From a virus: a stretch of DNA of 53,260 nt. The notes beneath the pieces were generated by a model. The model did no database searches. It was not told the DNA's origin and was given only the letters and a program-made list of their open reading frames with translations. A program made the position numbers and the translations under genes. The DNA is taken from positions 1 through 53,260 of the IMG/VR virus record IMGVR_UViG_3300031983_000023; one strand, given 5' to 3'. Shown here piece by piece: positions 16,606 to 28,824 of this stretch (positions are counted from its first letter, which is position 1; each line of letters starts with the position of its first letter).

Positions 16606-17994
16606 CTACGCCACCCGCAGGCCGCGGTGTATGGTGCTGGTCGCCTCGAAGGCGGGGCACAGCGCCGCGTAGCTCTTGATCATGAACGGGAGGAAGTCGT
16701 CGGTCCTGGCCAGCTCCTCGATGGTCACCAGTCCCCCGAAGCGGCTGCCCGCGCTGTTGGTGTACGGCAGCTTCCCCATGCCCTGGTACTTGTCGAGATC
16801 CCAGAGCATGACGATCTCGGGCGGAACGCCCGCGGTGTAGTTCAGCGGGAGGTCGCTTTGCAGGTGCGTGGGCACCGAAGCAGACGCCACTGTCGGGTCC
16901 GAGGTGAACTGATGGTTCAGCGTGGGGCCGGTGATCGTCCCGGCGCCGTCGTACTGGAACCCGCTGAGCACGTGCCGGAGCTTCCCCGCGCCCGTCCCGC
17001 CATCGGCGAGCTTGGCGCAGTATATCTTGTAGAACATCGCCCCGGGATACGCCGTCCAGCTGATGGTGATCGTGTCCTCCGTGGTGATGACTATGTTGAC
17101 TTCCGCGCTGGCGATCTGCTCCCCGTCCCAGGTCACTGGCGCGACCTGGAAGTAGTACGTGCCCGCCCCCATGCCGCTGCCCGCGCCGGCAGAAGCCGTC
17201 CCGACGACGGTCATCTGGCCCGTGGGCCTCGCGGCGCCGCTCTCGATGATCGGAATGTCGCGGTAGGCGTTGAGCCTCCACCCGCCGTTGATCTCGACGA
17301 CGGTCAGCCCGGAGCCTATCAGCCCCTGGTTCAACCTCACGTTGGTGAGGAGGGAGCTGAACTTGGACAGCATCCGCGGGCTCATGACGAAGCAGCGGTC
17401 GTGCTGCTGCGCCTGGCGCTCGTTGCCCCGGTCGATCATCTCGTCCAGGTCGCTCAGGTCGGTGGGCACCACCCCGCCGATCGCCTCGTTGATCCTGTTG
17501 GTTGCGGCCCATCGGTCTACCCCGCCGTAGGCGTACTGGTCGGCCAGCTCGTTGCCGTACAGCATGTAGATGATCAGGTCGTACACGTGGGCCAGGAGGT
17601 GGTTTTCCATCTCCGCAGCCGCCGCGTCGATGTACCTCGCGCTGGCGTCCTGCAGGAAGTTCGTCACGGCGCCCTTGCGCCGGATGATCTTCATCTGCAC
17701 GCTCTGCCTCGCGTAGGTCGCGTTGCGCGTCGGAGTCACGGCCGCCTCGCCCATGGCCCCGCCAGCCGCCGGCAGCGTCATCAACTGGTTGTACTCGTGC
17801 AGCTTCTGCGGGTCGAACTCCGGCTGTATGATCGCCATTTCCGGGGCGAGCCTCACCACGGTGTTTGTGATGATCTCCTCCAGCTTCTCACGGATCAGGG
17901 CCTCGCCCGTGCCGGTGCTCGAATCGAGGGCCTTCCGGATGAGAGACTTTCGGACCTCCCCGAGGCGCTTGTATTCGTCTGCTCTTTTTAGCAT
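16606..17994 (-). CDS. Major capsid protein (HK97-fold) with Fn3-like domain
   Basis: 462 residues. The N-terminal and central parts fit an HK97-type capsid protein: EKLEEIITNTVVRLAPEMAI, ARYIDAAAAEMENHLLAHVYD, DLDEMIDRGNERQ and the C-terminal PFMIKSYAALCPAFEATST. About residues 258-385 look like an inserted Fn3/Ig-like domain, with GTYYFQVAPVTWDGEQIASA and FYKIYCAKLADGG. Such insertions decorate the capsid surface. It follows the protease and scaffold genes, as expected. A GC-rich hairpin lies just after its stop. Confidence 0.8.
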   Translation of the reverse strand: MLKRADEYKRLGEVRKSLIRKALDSSTGTGEALIREKLEEIITNTVVRLAPEMAIIQPEFDPQKLHEYNQLMTLPAAGGAMGEAAVTPTRNATYARQSVQMKIIRRKGAVTNFLQDASARYIDAAAAEMENHLLAHVYDLIIYMLYGNELADQYAYGGVDRWAATNRINEAIGGVVPTDLSDLDEMIDRGNERQAQQHDRCFVMSPRMLSKFSSLLTNVRLNQGLIGSGLTVVEINGGWRLNAYRDIPIIESGAARPTGQMTVVGTASAGAGSGMGAGTYYFQVAPVTWDGEQIASAEVNIVITTEDTITISWTAYPGAMFYKIYCAKLADGGTGAGKLRHVLSGFQYDGAGTITGPTLNHQFTSDPTVASASVPTHLQSDLPLNYTAGVPPEIVMLWDLDKYQGMGKLPYTNSAGSRFGGLVTIEELARTDDFLPFMIKSYAALCPAFEATSTIHRGLRVA

Positions 17995-22034: not shown

Positions 22035-23570
22035 TTAGCGCCGCCTCGAGCCCTGGGTGAAGATGGGCTCCTCCTCCGTCCCCGCCGGCGCCTGCGGCTG
22101 CTGCGCCTCCCCCGGCCTGTCGTACTTCTCGTCCGGGAAGGGGTCCTCGCCGAGGAAGTCGGTCCTAATCTGGTTGACGCCGTACAGCCCGCTCCTGGCC
22201 CGCTCCGAGTTGAGCTTGATCTCCTCGAACTCCGACAGCCCGCTCTTGTACTGCATCCTGTAGCCGGTGCCGAATCGGAAGGGGATTATCTCGTAGTTGA
22301 AGAAGTCCTCGTGCAGCTTCATGACGGGGAAGATCCCGCGGCTCCGGTCGATCCTCTCCTCGCTCTCGGAGGTCGCCCTTCCGGAGGTGTCGGCGGAGCC
22401 GGTGAGGTTCATCTCCAGGTTGCTCATGTTGAACACCAGGGCGATGTCCTCTTTTATCTGCTGCTGCCTCCCGGTGTAGTAGGGGAACGTGTCGGACTTG
22501 GTCAGGTTGACCACCTTCGGCTCGGTGCTCCCGAGCCCGCTCAGCACCTTGACGGCGCCCTTGCGGACCTCGTTCACCAGGGTCTCGATGCGCTTCTGCT
22601 CTTTCTCGTCCAGGGGGACGTCGAGGTTCTGGTCCAGGTCCCCGAACGGCGCCTTCTCGGAGAAGATCACCAGGAGCTCCGGGGGCTTGGTGCCGTCGGC
22701 CTGCTCGGCGCTCAAGCGGTCGAACATCATGGACTCCGCCAGCTTGTTGATCAGGGCGTCCAGCGGGACGAACCCGTAGTCCTGCGCGGAGGACGGGATG
22801 TAGGTTATGTAGGTGAGCTCGTCGGGGCCGTATATCTGCACCTCCTGGGCGGCCGGGACCACCTGGGCGTACAGCTCCGCGCTCCCGACGTACCGGCCCT
22901 TCATGGGAACCACGGTGCCGCCGGGGAGCATGTAGAAGTTCTCGAGCCTCTTGTCCCTGGCCTCCTTGTAGACGGAGACCGAGCCCTGGACGAGCAGGTC
23001 GAACACCGACTTTTTCTGGAAGGTTCCGAAATTGTCCCTCTGGTTGGGCTGCTGCAGCCAGTCCTCTATTTCCGTGGATCTGTCCTCGTGGCGCTCCTTG
23101 ATCCGCCTCTTCCAGCGGTACAGGGCGGAGTTGAAGTTCGAGAGGTCGGGGAGGAGCTCGGGGAGCTGCATGATCAGCTGCCGCATGAACAGCGCCCTGG
23201 TGACCATCGCCCTGCGGTCCGCCACGCCTTCGTACTCCTTGGCGATTTCCTTCCAGTCCTTCATGGCCGCGGCGACCCTATCCTCGACCTTGCTCTCCGG
23301 GACCACGGTCCACTCCAGCGCCGCTATGCGGTTCATCCTGGACGTCACGATTCCCATGACCGCGGAGCAGCTCTGGAATATCTGGACCCTCTCCATGGGG
23401 TCGAGGCTGAACACGGGCCGCTGGTAGGTGCCCGTTATGATCTGCCCTTCCTTCCACCTCCCCGTCACCCTCATGAGTTCCGAGATGTGGTAGACCGAAA
23501 GGCCCCTGTGCCCTGGCTTCCTCCGGAGGGAGGAGACGATCTGCTCCGCCGTGACGGCCATGTATGCCAT
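22035..23570 (-). CDS. Portal protein
   Basis: 511 residues from ATG at 23570 (spaced from GGGGGTG); a GTG two codons upstream is an alternative. Portal features include SRMNRIAALEWTVVPE near residue 80, FDLLVQGSVSVYKE, FYMLPGGTVVPMKGRYVG, ELTYITYIPSSAQDYG and the wing/stem IKEDIALVFNMSNLEM. The C-terminus is proline-rich. It forms the dodecameric DNA gate at the capsid vertex. Its own promoter lies just upstream. Confidence 0.88.
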   Translation of the reverse strand: MAYMAVTAEQIVSSLRRKPGHRGLSVYHISELMRVTGRWKEGQIITGTYQRPVFSLDPMERVQIFQSCSAVMGIVTSRMNRIAALEWTVVPESKVEDRVAAAMKDWKEIAKEYEGVADRRAMVTRALFMRQLIMQLPELLPDLSNFNSALYRWKRRIKERHEDRSTEIEDWLQQPNQRDNFGTFQKKSVFDLLVQGSVSVYKEARDKRLENFYMLPGGTVVPMKGRYVGSAELYAQVVPAAQEVQIYGPDELTYITYIPSSAQDYGFVPLDALINKLAESMMFDRLSAEQADGTKPPELLVIFSEKAPFGDLDQNLDVPLDEKEQKRIETLVNEVRKGAVKVLSGLGSTEPKVVNLTKSDTFPYYTGRQQQIKEDIALVFNMSNLEMNLTGSADTSGRATSESEERIDRSRGIFPVMKLHEDFFNYEIIPFRFGTGYRMQYKSGLSEFEEIKLNSERARSGLYGVNQIRTDFLGEDPFPDEKYDRPGEAQQPQAPAGTEEEPIFTQGSRRR

Positions 23571-23591
23571 GCTCACCCCCGTTTGCTTTGG

Positions 23592-23627: not shown

Positions 23628-24092
23628 TCAGGGTTTCAGGAGCCTGTCCGCCGTCCACCTCTCGAACGTGTCGAACACCGCGTCGACCCATTCGCCCTTG
23701 AATCGGTAGCCCCGCTCGTCTATGTAGATGAACGCCACCGGCTTGATGCAGGTTACTCTGTCCACCTCTATGCCGTTCACCTGCAAGTACTTTCTGACGG
23801 CCCCCATGCCCTCCGACGTGCCGCACCTCACCGAGTGCACCACCACCTCGAACACGGTCCGCAGGGTTCTCACCGCCTCCGCCACGTCCTCGACCGGCGG
23901 GTCCGGAATCCGATCCGTCCCCTGCCAGCCGGACGTGTAGCTGTGGATCACCCCGTCGAAGTCCAGGGCGACGACCCTCCTTGTTTTCTTTGTGCCGGAA
24001 GGAACCATGCCGAACCTGTACCCGCACTCGCAGAGCAGCTCCGGCGAGTCCCCCGCCAGCCTCAGCGCCTTGTCGCACTTCGGGCATTTCAT
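23628..24092 (-). CDS. HAD-like phosphatase with N-terminal zinc ribbon
   Basis: 154 residues. Residues 3-24 carry CPKC and CECG, a zinc ribbon. VVALDFDGVIHSY (residues 40-52) is the HAD nucleophile motif, D44xD46. EVVVHSVRCG and PVAFIYIDERGYRFKGEW correspond to later HAD motifs, though the last acidic pair is reduced. Phage HAD proteins of this kind hydrolyse nucleotide or polynucleotide phosphates; the substrate here is unknown. It sits between the Acb2-like gene and the portal. Confidence 0.7.
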   Translation of the reverse strand: MKCPKCDKALRLAGDSPELLCECGYRFGMVPSGTKKTRRVVALDFDGVIHSYTSGWQGTDRIPDPPVEDVAEAVRTLRTVFEVVVHSVRCGTSEGMGAVRKYLQVNGIEVDRVTCIKPVAFIYIDERGYRFKGEWVDAVFDTFERWTADRLLKP

Positions 24093-24134: not shown

Positions 24135-24566
24135 TTACGTCGGCTCCCCTCCCCTCTCGTAGTAAGGCTTTGGCCGGCCCTCGTTTCTCGCCACGCCGGC
24201 GTCGGCCCAGAACAGCGCCTCCTCCAGCTTCCGCAGGGCCACGGATTTCTCCCGGCCGGGCGGCACCTCGTCGTCTATCACCCCCGCCATCTGCCTGACC
24301 GACATCCGCAGCCTCGCTATGCTTATGCCCTGGCTCTCGCCGATGGCATGCGTGTCGAACCTCTTGAGAATCTCCTCCCTGCGATCCCGCGGATCGAGTG
24401 TGCTCCCCTTGCCAACCCGCAGTGGATCCATCGCCTCCGCGCTCGGCGGCCCCGGCCTCGGCCTCGCCGTCTCCGGTTTCGACAAGTTCTCCGACTCCAC
24501 GTTGTCACCGCCTTTCTGCATCCGGCTCTTTCCGAACCGTAGTCCTGCTTCTCTGTCTTTGTCCAT
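24135..24566 (-). CDS. Acb2/Tad1-hairpin domain protein (candidate anti-CBASS or anti-Thoeris)
   Basis: 143 residues from ATG at 24566 after GAGGAGGAA. The N-terminal 55 residues are low-complexity. Residues about 68-131 match the pattern of the Acb2/Tad1 hairpin domain: LKRFDTHA, a helical spacer, then PPGREKSVALRKLEEALFWA and GVARNEG. Proteins with this domain form hexamers that sequester cyclic nucleotide signals (CBASS) or gcADPR (Thoeris). The REKS...LEEA.fWA..gvARNE core is well kept. The family fit is from my reading of the motif; the bound ligand is unknown. Confidence 0.7.
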   Translation of the reverse strand: MDKDREAGLRFGKSRMQKGGDNVESENLSKPETARPRPGPPSAEAMDPLRVGKGSTLDPRDRREEILKRFDTHAIGESQGISIARLRMSVRQMAGVIDDEVPPGREKSVALRKLEEALFWADAGVARNEGRPKPYYERGGEPT

Positions 24567-24580
24567 TCCTTCCTCCTCAC

Positions 24581-25177
24581 CTATTCGTTCTGAATGTCCC
24601 GCATGTTCGCCAGGCTTATTTCCGTCGCTCCGCGCGCCCGGCGCAGCCGCCCCAGTCCCTTTGATTCCAGCTGCCTGATTCTGTTGCCGGTTACGTTGTA
24701 TATCTGCCCTATCTCGTCCAGCGTCTTTTGCTCCCCCTCCAGGCCGAACCGCAGCTTGATTATTTCCGCCTCTCGCGGAGGAAGCGTGTCGAGCACGGCC
24801 ATCAACTCCTCGCCGACCTGTCCCCGGCTCGCGGCGATTTCCGTCCCCCACAGCCGCAGCCTTTCCCTGGGAGCTTCTATCTGCGAAAAAGGGATTTCCA
24901 GCACGGCCCTCGTTTCCTTGAACCCGTACAACTCATCGGGAAAAAGGTCCTCCTTGAGCATCTTGAAATGGTCGCCCAGTCTGACCGCCTGCAGGCAGTA
25001 TGCCTCGTCCTTTTTCCTGGCCTTCCGTTTCAGGTTCAGCAGCTTTCCTATGGCAACCTGATTCCCCACCCCCGGGTTGGCCTCCACGAATTGGCTGACC
25101 GAACTGTAGCGGTCGAAAATGCAGTGCCACAAAACGTTGTTCCTTAGCCTCGCCTCCAGCCTGATCGGCTTAATCAT
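24581..25177 (-). CDS. Sigma-70-family region 4 protein
   Basis: 198 residues. The C-terminal 70 residues are a clear sigma region 4: LPPREAEIIKLRFGLEGEQ, then TLDEIGQIYNVTGNRIRQLE, the helix-turn-helix, and GLGRLRRARG. The N-terminal 120 residues do not look like region 2 (no DxxxxxxRL..A..kFD or aromatic melting motif) and start MIKPIRLEARLRNN with YSSVSQFVEANPGVGNQVA, which itself looks like a small HTH. It may act as a late-gene sigma or an adaptor recruiting host polymerase. It is in the terminase operon, just before virion genes. Confidence 0.8.
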   Translation of the reverse strand: MIKPIRLEARLRNNVLWHCIFDRYSSVSQFVEANPGVGNQVAIGKLLNLKRKARKKDEAYCLQAVRLGDHFKMLKEDLFPDELYGFKETRAVLEIPFSQIEAPRERLRLWGTEIAASRGQVGEELMAVLDTLPPREAEIIKLRFGLEGEQKTLDEIGQIYNVTGNRIRQLESKGLGRLRRARGATEISLANMRDIQNE

Positions 25178-25189
25178 ATCGCTCTCCTC

Positions 25190-26761
25190 TCACCTCGCCA
25201 TCGCCAGGATACGCCTGGCGACGAGCATGTATGCTATGGCGTGCAGGTAGTGGTCCGGGTCGTCGCCGGCCCAGACGTACTTGCCCCGCCTCTCGTCGTA
25301 GACCCTGGTCAGCGCCCCGAGGTGCTCCCGCAGCTCCGGCATTTCCTCCGCCTCCCTGGGCAGCACGAGCTCCCCGGTGAGCAGGGCCTCCTTGACCGCG
25401 TCGATCGTCTGCGTCCTCTCCACGGTTATGATCTTGTGCGCCCCGTCCACTATGTCCCGCTTGACTTCGCCGTAGAAGCAGTAGAATCCGCCCCGGAAAC
25501 TCCTGGCGAACTTCTTGGACAGCCGCCCCTCCGGGAGGGCGTCGATCACCCCGGCGACGCACCTGTACTGCCTGTACAGCCCGGCCAGCTCGGAGAAGTC
25601 CTCCACCTCCCCGGAGCCGAAGGAGCGCAGGAGCCTCACCACCAACCTGGAACCCTGGACTTCCCCGATCGCCACGTACATGGCGTTGCCCACGTCGCAG
25701 CCCAGCAGGCACCTGCCCTTCCCCGGGCCCATGGTGTGATCCCCGACCTCCCCTGCATCCAGGGAAATCTTTGCCCCGGAGGCCTCGTAGGGCAGCCCGA
25801 GGTCGCCGTTGTAGAACCTCTGCATAACGCTGTCGTTGACCAGGCCCTTCTCGAACCTCTCGAGCAGCTCGGCGACTCGCACTTTCGTGCTGAACATCTT
25901 CGAGATGTGGTACCCCGAGCCTACGCCCCGCTCGTTCGTCCTGACCCAAGCCCCCTCCGCGTACCTGTCCAGCTCCTTGCCGCACTCGCAGATCACCCGT
26001 ATGTCCCTGCTCCCCTCGCGATCCCACCTCTTGTCGATCACCGCGTAGTCCCCAGTATCGAGCCTCTGGACCACGTGCTTGAAGAAATCCGGATACACCC
26101 AGCGGCCGCACGCCTGGCACTTAATGTTCCACTGCTTCCGGTCGCTCGCCCTGTACAGCGCAGCCATGCCGTGGCCCGAGACGGAGGGCTGCCCGACCCT
26201 CGTCTCCGTCTTGTCCTCCGCCGCGCTCAGCCTCTCCACGGCCATGTTGAGGTTGCCCTGGTCGCACTCGTCCAGCTCGTCCACCACCAGGTCGTCCGCG
26301 GGGTACTCGGTGAAAACGCTCGTGGTGTTTGATCCGGCGAAGGCTATGCTCCCTATCCCGAGATGCTTGAGGTACATGCTCTCCGACTGCTTGGTTGTCA
26401 TCATCCTGGAGGCCCGGAGTACTTCCTTATAATAGGCAGTGAACTCTATCGTCCGGTCGACTCGATTCTTGACGAAGCGGCTCGCGAGCTGGAAGGTGGG
26501 CATAACGTAAAAAACCGCCCTCCCGTCTATGGCCGGGGTGATTGCCTTCATGCCGAGCAGCCATTCCGACGCCCCATTTTGCGTCGCCTTCTGGAGCACC
26601 ACCAGCGGGCTGTCGTCCGTGTAGAGCGCCTTGAGATACACCCTGCCCCGGAAGTCAAGCCTCTTATCCCTGTGAGTCCGGTGGTGCCGCAAGACAGCCC
26701 TCACCCGCCGGTTCGACTTTGCGAGCCCCTCGTCAATCCTTGCCTTTTCTCCGACGAGCAT
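25190..26761 (-). CDS. terL: Terminase large subunit
   Basis: 523 residues from ATG at 26761, after GGGGGAGG, overlapping the small subunit by 29 bases. ATPase: VVLQKATQNGASEWLLG is a terminase-type Walker A (QxGxS form), DDLVVDELDECD is Walker B. An internal zinc ribbon (CQACGRW, CECGKEL) is unusual but found in some GpA-like terminases. Nuclease: LLGCDVGNAMYVAI gives the first Asp and GDDPDHYLHAIAYM the last. It pumps DNA into proheads and cuts concatemers. Confidence 0.88.
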   Translation of the reverse strand: MLVGEKARIDEGLAKSNRRVRAVLRHHRTHRDKRLDFRGRVYLKALYTDDSPLVVLQKATQNGASEWLLGMKAITPAIDGRAVFYVMPTFQLASRFVKNRVDRTIEFTAYYKEVLRASRMMTTKQSESMYLKHLGIGSIAFAGSNTTSVFTEYPADDLVVDELDECDQGNLNMAVERLSAAEDKTETRVGQPSVSGHGMAALYRASDRKQWNIKCQACGRWVYPDFFKHVVQRLDTGDYAVIDKRWDREGSRDIRVICECGKELDRYAEGAWVRTNERGVGSGYHISKMFSTKVRVAELLERFEKGLVNDSVMQRFYNGDLGLPYEASGAKISLDAGEVGDHTMGPGKGRCLLGCDVGNAMYVAIGEVQGSRLVVRLLRSFGSGEVEDFSELAGLYRQYRCVAGVIDALPEGRLSKKFARSFRGGFYCFYGEVKRDIVDGAHKIITVERTQTIDAVKEALLTGELVLPREAEEMPELREHLGALTRVYDERRGKYVWAGDDPDHYLHAIAYMLVARRILAMAR

Positions 26762-27194
26762 TCGCCTCCCCCGCCTTCGTCTTGGGTTTCCGCAGGGCTT
26801 CCGGTTCGATGAAAAACTGGGATAGCAGCTCCCCGTACCACTCCTCGTCCTCTGCAGATAGCTCCATGTCATAGCTCAGGTTGACCAGCCGTCCTTCCAC
26901 GCTCACGTTCAGCTGAGGCAGCCCGTCGAGATAGTTCATGAAAAGGCGCTGCGCCGCCACGTTTCCCTTGATCACTTCCTGAAACATCGACCGGATGAAC
27001 ATTTCTTTTCGCTTCACCAGGACGGTGTGCATTCTCTTGCCCTTGCCGACTTCTATCTCCTGGGAGCCGTCCAGGTACTCCCGGATCATGTCGGTATAAG
27101 TCCGCCCCTTCTTTGGCCTTCCCGCGGGATTGCCGCTTGTACCAGGCGGCCAGGGCCGGCCCCTGGGTTTCCCTTCCTCTGGTATGTTCTCCAT
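26733..27194 (-). CDS. Terminase small subunit-like (DUF5681-type)
   Basis: 153 residues. N-terminus PPGTSGNPAGRPKKGRTYTD is the NPAGRPK motif of DUF5681 proteins, which commonly precede phage terL. The rest is helical (VAAQRLFMNYLDGLPQLNVS). It would recognise the packaging start site. Its ribosome site is weak (GAGGGGAAAA), and the guide array lies 82 bases upstream, so the array's transcript probably runs into it. Confidence 0.75.
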   Translation of the reverse strand: MENIPEEGKPRGRPWPPGTSGNPAGRPKKGRTYTDMIREYLDGSQEIEVGKGKRMHTVLVKRKEMFIRSMFQEVIKGNVAAQRLFMNYLDGLPQLNVSVEGRLVNLSYDMELSAEDEEWYGELLSQFFIEPEALRKPKTKAGEANARRRKGKD

Positions 27195-27276: not shown

Positions 27277-28007
27277 ACCTCCGCTCCCACCGGCTGGGCT
27301 TCTCTCCGGCCGTGGCCCGCTCCCGTGGTCTGGGCTTCTCACTCGCCGGTGGCCCGCTCACCCACACTGGGTTTCTCCACTACCCTGGCCCGCTCTGCTC
27401 AAGTGGACTTCTCCGTCGCGGTGGCACGCTCTCTCGACCTGGGTTTCTCGGGGAAGATGGCCCGCTCCGGTGGTGTGGGTTTCTCCCAGGACATGGCCCG
27501 CTCGGTCCGGGTGGATTTCTCTGGAGAGGTGGCCCGCTCCATCCGCATGGGCTTCTCGCCTACAGTGGCCCGCTTCCCGTCCGTGGGTTTCTCGCTCTTT
27601 TTGGCTCGCTCTATCACAATGGATTTCTCATGGTGCCTGGCCCGCTCATCGAGCCTGGATTTCTCCCGGGCGATGGCCCGCTCTTGCAAGCTGGGTTTCT
27701 CCTCTGCCTTGGCCCGCTCTCCAGCCGTGGGCTTCTTGGACTTCCTGGCCCGCTCGCTCCTGGTGGGCTTCTCCCTGTTCTTGGCCCGCTCTGAGCATTT
27801 GGGTTTCTCGTTGGTCATGGCCCGCTCGACCGGCCTGGGTTTCTCGCGGTTCGTGGCTCGCTCCCCCCGTTTGGGTTTCTTAAGTTCGATGGCCCGCTCC
27901 AGTCGTCTGGGTTTCTCCACGATCGTGGCCCGCTCCCCCTCAATGATTTTCTCTTGGAAAGTGGCTCGCTCCCCGCCTGTGGGTTTCTTGCCGGAGGTGG
28001 CTCTTCC
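27277..28007 (-). repeat. TIGR-type tandem interspaced guide RNA array
   Basis: About 40 conserved 10-base repeats occur every 18 bases, alternating between two kinds. On the minus strand type A is GAGCGGGCCA and type B is GAGAAACCCA (with single-base variants such as GAGAAGCCCA and GAGAAATCCA). Each pair is separated by 8 fully variable bases, giving a 36-bp double unit about 20 times. Positions run from 27295 in 18-base steps, with one 9-base spacer at 27341-27349. The edges (27277-27286 and 27998-28007) are degenerate. All spacers I compared (about 39) differ from each other. The array lies directly downstream of the Tas-like gene on the same strand. A 36-nt unit holding two short guides is the known TIGR (tigRNA) design. 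Confidence 0.9.
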
Positions 28008-28824
28008 TCCACTCGCTATGTTTGTGCCCCAGATACTCCTCGTCGTAGAGGGGCCGTATGGGCAAGCCCTCCAGTGCCCGCCATATGACGTACAGGTCCT
28101 TGATGAACATTTTCACCATGTAGCGCCTGGCCGCGTTGTGCTGGTGTCCCGCCTTTGGCCGCTTCGGATCAGTCGGGTTCTTGCTCTCCTCGCCCCAATC
28201 CTCCGACTCAAGACGGTGCTTCACGTTGTCATAGTAAACTCTATACGGGCTGCCATGCACGAGAAACTGCTTGCCGAGCACGCCCAGCAGCTTGGATTTC
28301 AGGAAGGCGTTGTATGGGCGCACAAAGCCCTTCGTTTTTTTGTCGCCGCGGATCAGGGTATCGGTCGCGACCAGTACCCTTTTCCCCTTTATCTTTTTCC
28401 AGACCTTCCCGCGCACAAGGCCTGGATTCATACCGGCGAACTGCCAGCCTTTGGAGACGTTCTCGAACTTGTGTATGTCGAACTCTGTAACGATCACGGC
28501 AGCCAGCATCTCGCCGACTCCCTTCACGTCCCTAAGATAGCTAATCCAGAGCGGGTGCTTGTGGATTAGAGGGACGATCGCCTTTATCATGGCGAGCTCA
28601 AATTTCAGTTTATCGTCCCTCCGCTCCATGAGTACCATGAGCAAAGCGGCGTCGCGGTCCGGCCTCCCCTTTTTGGCCTCTCCATTTTTCGTCAAGCCAA
28701 GTCGGCCGTCCAAGGCTATACGCTCGTCTTGAGCGTCATAATAAGCCCGCGTGAAGATGCGGATCGACTCCATCATCTCCGGGGTAAACCTTTCATCCGG
28801 GTCCGGACAACATACCGTTTTCAT
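27940..28824 (-). CDS. tas: Tas-like protein (IS110/Nop-type C-terminal domain), guide array partner
   Basis: 294 residues. An N-terminal helical part (residues 60-90, coiled-coil-like) precedes the IS110 Tnp20/Nop-type core: LRDVKGVGEMLAAVIVTEFD (residues 97-116, helix-hairpin-helix), WQFAGMNPGLVRGK (127-140), and GHQHNAARRYMVKMFIKDLY (226-245). The RuvC/DEDD domain of IS110 and any HNH or RuvC fusion are absent, so this resembles the nuclease-free form of Tas proteins. ATG at 28824 overlaps the ParB-like stop (ATGA). The last 23 codons read into the first repeats of the array and stop inside it. It probably binds the 36-nt guides; targeting without cutting is inferred. Confidence 0.85.
   Translation of the reverse strand: MKTVCCPDPDERFTPEMMESIRIFTRAYYDAQDERIALDGRLGLTKNGEAKKGRPDRDAALLMVLMERRDDKLKFELAMIKAIVPLIHKHPLWISYLRDVKGVGEMLAAVIVTEFDIHKFENVSKGWQFAGMNPGLVRGKVWKKIKGKRVLVATDTLIRGDKKTKGFVRPYNAFLKSKLLGVLGKQFLVHGSPYRVYYDNVKHRLESEDWGEESKNPTDPKRPKAGHQHNAARRYMVKMFIKDLYVIWRALEGLPIRPLYDEEYLGHKHSEWRKSHLRQETHRRGASHFPRENH

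Follow-up and report, generated by a model that had tools for sequence, protein, structure and literature searches.

Introduction

Acb2 proteins are small and soak up the nucleotide alarm signals that bacteria use against phages. In the Acb2 of phage PaP2, K26 and Y11 are presumably contacts to the dinucleotide and R67 a contact to the trinucleotide. The Acb2 of phage T4, Vs.4, is experimentally verified: it sequesters 3'3'-cGAMP and suffices to overcome a CBASS operon (PMC11722364). Its Y8A mutant is binding-deficient, and T68M lowers binding (PMC12657230). A short helix followed by a helical hairpin is the layout reported for Acb2 (PMC10419184). The family is partly annotated already in public genomes as Acb2 or cyclic-oligonucleotide sequestering protein (PMC13348362; PMC11953737).

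Here we describe a gene in IMG/VR virus record IMGVR_UViG_3300031983_000023. The window is the whole stretch of DNA analysed, 53,260 nucleotides. We put the probability that this gene encodes an Acb2-family cyclic-oligonucleotide sponge at about 75%. It adds a member to the known Acb2 family and is no new kind of system. This member is ordinary except in two respects: its N-terminal part is unusual and disordered, and a single residue of the pocket has changed.

Results and discussion

The gene and its family

The gene and the features within and next to it are as follows.

24135..24566 (-): acb2-like gene, 143 aa; ATG at 24566, stop at 24135-24137
24572..24578 (-): GAGGAGG, Shine-Dalgarno sequence of the acb2-like gene, 5 bases ahead of its start codon
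24393..24566 (-): residues 1-58, the N-terminal extension, disordered in the model (sister ortholog without it)
24183..24392 (-): Acb2-type domain, residues 59-128, helices 59-69, 77-100 and 105-128 (AlphaFold)
24186..24317 (-): match to Pfam PF24729 Acb2_Tad1_hairpin, residues 84-127 (Pfam profile)
24231..24233 (-): codon CGG of Arg112, equivalent to T68 of T4 Acb2 and T74 of PaP2 Acb2 (alignment)

The gene is genuine. Its third-position GC is 0.82 inside the open reading frame and 0.42 upstream in the same frame; this drop, together with GAGGAGG 5 bases upstream, favours ATG 24566 as the start. Codon composition and the strong Shine-Dalgarno sequence at 24566 also led us to reject a longer frame from a mechanically called GTG at 24851. 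The motifs RFDTHA, REKS, LEEALFWA and ARNE, on which the initial annotation had based its reading, all lie within the translated 143 residues. A scan for promoters and terminators gave no signal above chance.

The protein matches PF24729 with an E-value of 3e-11 and 43.8 bits, where the curated cut-off is 27 bits. It also matches phrog_1454 (E 5e-19), and its best sequence match of solved structure is PDB 9ptq, "Acb2 homolog 43" (E 5e-8). Given these three matches the motif is not a chance resemblance. PF24729 also detects T4 Vs.4 (E 7e-20). Across the window record the acb2-like gene is the sole match. The Acb2 family is common: relatives were found in 304 phage records by tblastn, chiefly of mycobacterial, Paenibacillus and Gordonia phages, and in 506 confirmed IMG/VR stretches by a pattern scan. 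The proposal of an Acb2-family protein is thus borne out by Pfam, the structural sequence match and the relatives, as well as by the predicted fold described below.

Compared with its nearest described relatives the protein is both similar and distinct. The 9ptq protein has FDTH, GREKSV and KLEEA in common with it, but is 76 aa long, has no extension and retains the Thr (KTKLEEA). T4 Vs.4 (PDB 7uq2) and PaP2 p26 (PDB 8h2j) share PF24729, the short helix plus hairpin and the basic pocket residue (K23 and K26, corresponding to R87), and R67 of PaP2 corresponds to R105. They differ in that the window protein has a 58-residue disordered N-terminus, Arg in place of Thr68 or Thr74, and a shorter hairpin, whose long helices have no insertion between them; further, its gene lies in the head module, unlike theirs. 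Actinophage members such as those of Mycobacterium phage Jordennis and Gordonia phage Bantam are about 37-46% identical over the core and about 70-80 aa long, and their genes mostly adjoin replication or nucleotide-metabolism genes. Microbacterium phage Statler may be compared with these (PMC13348362).

Genomic place and the sister phage

All named neighbours of the gene are on the minus strand.

26733-27194 (-): DUF5681 protein (domain match)
25190..26872 (-): terminase large subunit, GpA-type ATPase (domain match)
24581..25177 (-): upstream neighbour, 198 aa, sigma-70 region 4 (E 1.5e-17)
23628..24092 (-): zinc-ribbon/HAD-like protein, next gene downstream (conserved in the sister phage, 50%)
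22035..23576 (-): portal protein (67% identity to its sister counterpart)

In the 198-aa protein sigma-70 region 4 alone is recognisable, and no counterpart was found in the terminase-portal gap of the sister phage. Upstream of the terminase genes lies a 173-aa frame (27399-27920 (-)) with repeats of about 12 residues, EKPxxxERAxxx, and no family match. Just upstream of the packaging genes is an IS110-like transposase-related protein (27940-28824 (-); phrog_4285, E 2e-30).

The sister phage is IMGVR_UViG_3300037307_000413 (G001, with loci L098 and L103), in which the terminase is 66% and a head protein 72% identical to those of the window. Its acb2 ortholog, 81 aa (L103:1363-1608), lies directly after the terminase gene terL and matches PF24729 with an E-value of 2.5e-15. 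It is 52% identical to the window protein over 71 aa, and the shared region starts at residue 2 of the ortholog. The rest of the sister gap contains an HAD-like gene and, upstream of the portal, a gene for a 108-aa Tad1-like hairpin protein (L098:4981-5307 (+), between the HAD-like gene and the portal). The Tad1-like gene is additional to the acb2 ortholog, and the window has none. The sister gap also holds a repetitive frame (GALSFSGS...), which is unlike the repeat frame of the window.

In 28 loci having both a related terminase and a related portal, fewer than 700 bases mostly separate these genes; the distance is 1614 bases for the window, 6172 for G001 and 3333 for L094. Since the sister phage also has a separate Tad1-like gene there, the interval looks like an accessory or counter-defence slot in this phage group.

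The initial annotation had regarded a place among virion genes as odd. The gene does lie between the terminase and portal genes, but the placement is recurrent, since homologs occur in the head or tail modules of other phages as well as in the sister. In L038, from the wider group of the window phage, an Acb2 homolog directly follows the portal (L038:6013-6225). Another (L168:2993-3238) lies between a portal-like protein, as we read that frame, and a MuF-like gene, and in phage Henu3 a homolog is found near the terminase. In cyanophage S-2L there is an unannotated Acb2-family frame of 70 aa in the tail module (L005:5986-6198; MW334946 35199-35411; Pfam E 4e-19).

The position between terminase and portal could also fit a hairpin protein that has decayed or been repurposed and has lost nucleotide binding. 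It might then be, for instance, a small virion component or assembly factor, retained because of its place in the head module. Two usually conserved positions deviate, and a crude dN/dS between window and ortholog of about 0.84 (0.48/0.57) does not strongly show constraint, but with 71 codons and high divergence this value is unreliable. Further, the frame is intact and its Shine-Dalgarno sequence strong; the helical core, R87, R105 and LEEAxFW are conserved; and most related phages have no room between terL and portal, so the protein is not a needed virion part. We regard such a loss of binding as distinctly unlikely.

Among 50,697 phage records the head (16606-17994 (-)) and portal (22035-23576 (-)) proteins have relatives only in Leptospira phages LE3/LE4. 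These are the nearest cultured phages, at 38% identity for the portal and 49% for the head protein. The host need not be Leptospira, since the GC of the window is 54-65%. A scan of genome contigs for host identification found no relatives.

Predicted fold and N-terminal extension

AlphaFold2, run as a monomer prediction on an input alignment of 64 sequences, gives one short and two long antiparallel helices with high confidence (pLDDT 80-97 over residues 61-130, by ten-residue blocks). The initial annotation had made its case depend on a hairpin fold, and a hairpin is what is predicted. Modelled from its sequence alone, the sister ortholog has a layout in agreement with this (helices 5-11, 18-42 and 47-79). 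When the two models were compared with the PDB by Foldseek, nothing significant or specific was returned, and Vs.4 first appeared at rank 18. Helical hairpins are too generic for such a search to be specific, and the absence of Acb2 at the top was therefore not used as evidence.

Ahead of this domain, residues 1-62 are rich in Arg, Gly, Pro, Asp, Lys and Glu, and residues 1-58, which few relatives cover, are unstructured in the model. Composition and model thus agree with a low-complexity N-terminus of about 55 residues, as first described. The extension is indeed unusual: 103 residues precede the GRE/SRE motif in the window, against a median of 44 in 86 relatives and more than 58 in 4 of these, in a count where the relatives' start codons were chosen by rule and some are uncertain. 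The extension is also absent from the syntenic sister ortholog, and on this ground we consider it lineage-specific. A search for homologs of the extension gave none that was convincing (best E 0.03, low-complexity). Near full-length alignments to mycobacteriophage records were rejected as N-terminal homology, as they continue into the ThyX gene upstream. Most likely the disordered N-terminus was added in this lineage and is dispensable for the sponge core.

The fold also bears on whether the protein is a Tad1-type sponge, that is, an anti-Thoeris protein acting on gcADPR, which the initial annotation had proposed side by side with the anti-CBASS role. PF24729 spans the hairpins of Acb2 and Tad1 alike, and Tad1 hairpins join the relatives of the window protein in a profile search. 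Tad1 (PDB 7uav, 8kbb) resembles it in a hairpin helix with the pattern RE..A..LEEAL.W. However, Tad1 also has an antiparallel beta-sheet domain at its N-terminus and a conserved tail at its C-terminus, and neither is seen here: no beta strands are predicted, in a model where few relatives cover residues 1-58, and the C-terminal stretch RTEDRERRGVEGTH of the sister Tad1-like protein is absent. Further, a scan with the Tad1-like profile phrog_2428 left the window without a match at E<=1 but detected the sister phage at 9e-24. The sister 108-aa protein matches this profile at 4e-22 and the Tad1 structure 8kbb at 3e-12. On the missing phrog_2428 match the Tad1 assignment was dropped, and an anti-Thoeris role is highly improbable.

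Pocket residues

In a MAFFT alignment with T4 Vs.4 and PaP2 p26, R87 corresponds to K26 of PaP2 and K23 of T4, R105 to R67 of PaP2, and R112 to T74 of PaP2 and T68 of T4. The R87 position is Arg in 68 of 69 relatives. Position 112 is Thr in 78 of the 83 distinct relatives typed; three have Ala, one His and one, the sister ortholog, Arg. As the 52%-identical ortholog shares Arg112, and the codon is CGG in both, it is not a sequencing slip. At position 72 an aromatic residue (Y, F or H) is found in 60 of 69 relatives, with Thr in the window and Phe in the sister ortholog. The Tyr of the characterized proteins (T4 Y8, PaP2 Y11) aligns either with T72 (MAFFT) or else with the near-invariant F70, and the family varies at both the Tyr and the Thr places. 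To judge from these alignments, the basic residues are conserved and the pocket presumed to hold the dinucleotide has changed.

Since Arg replaces Thr here and T68M weakens binding in T4, the ligand range may differ from that of the relatives. An Acb2 sponge with a changed dinucleotide pocket (T72, R112) would take another ligand; it might, for instance, be restricted to cyclic trinucleotides or prefer a rarer dinucleotide. This is a real but minority possibility. It fits with an Arg112 that is common to the ortholog and seen in no other distinct relative typed, with the conserved R105, and with ALRKLEEA at the Arg112 place in the sister Tad1-like protein. However, Ala and His also occur at position 112, which is therefore not strictly constrained, and 9ptq also has T72. 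A wider proposal is that window and sister form an Acb2 subgroup whose Thr to Arg pocket would be tuned to a signal that T4-type Acb2 binds poorly, encoded in a terminase-portal slot that collects different sponges; this we find rather doubtful.

Proposed function and significance

For the Acb2-family sponge, our preferred reading, the mechanism would follow that of characterized members. If the protein behaves as its T4 and PaP2 counterparts do, its short helix and hairpin would assemble into a hexamer. This hexamer would bind, without cleaving them, the cyclic dinucleotides, trinucleotides or both that the CBASS cyclase of the host makes, or else the cA3 of type III CRISPR. With the signal sequestered, the killing effector would stay off and the phage would complete its cycle. 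Against a sponge stand Arg112 in place of the usual Thr, T72 at a mostly aromatic position, although the 9ptq homolog shares it, and the lack of a significant Foldseek match, for which the generic hairpin accounts.

If this reading holds, counter-defence is now added to an uncultured phage group that is nearest, by its head proteins, to the cultured Leptospira phages LE3/LE4. Further, the presence of Acb2 homologs in head and tail modules is recurrent, being seen in several unrelated phages. The natural pocket variant Arg112 offers a means to test what determines ligand choice in the family.
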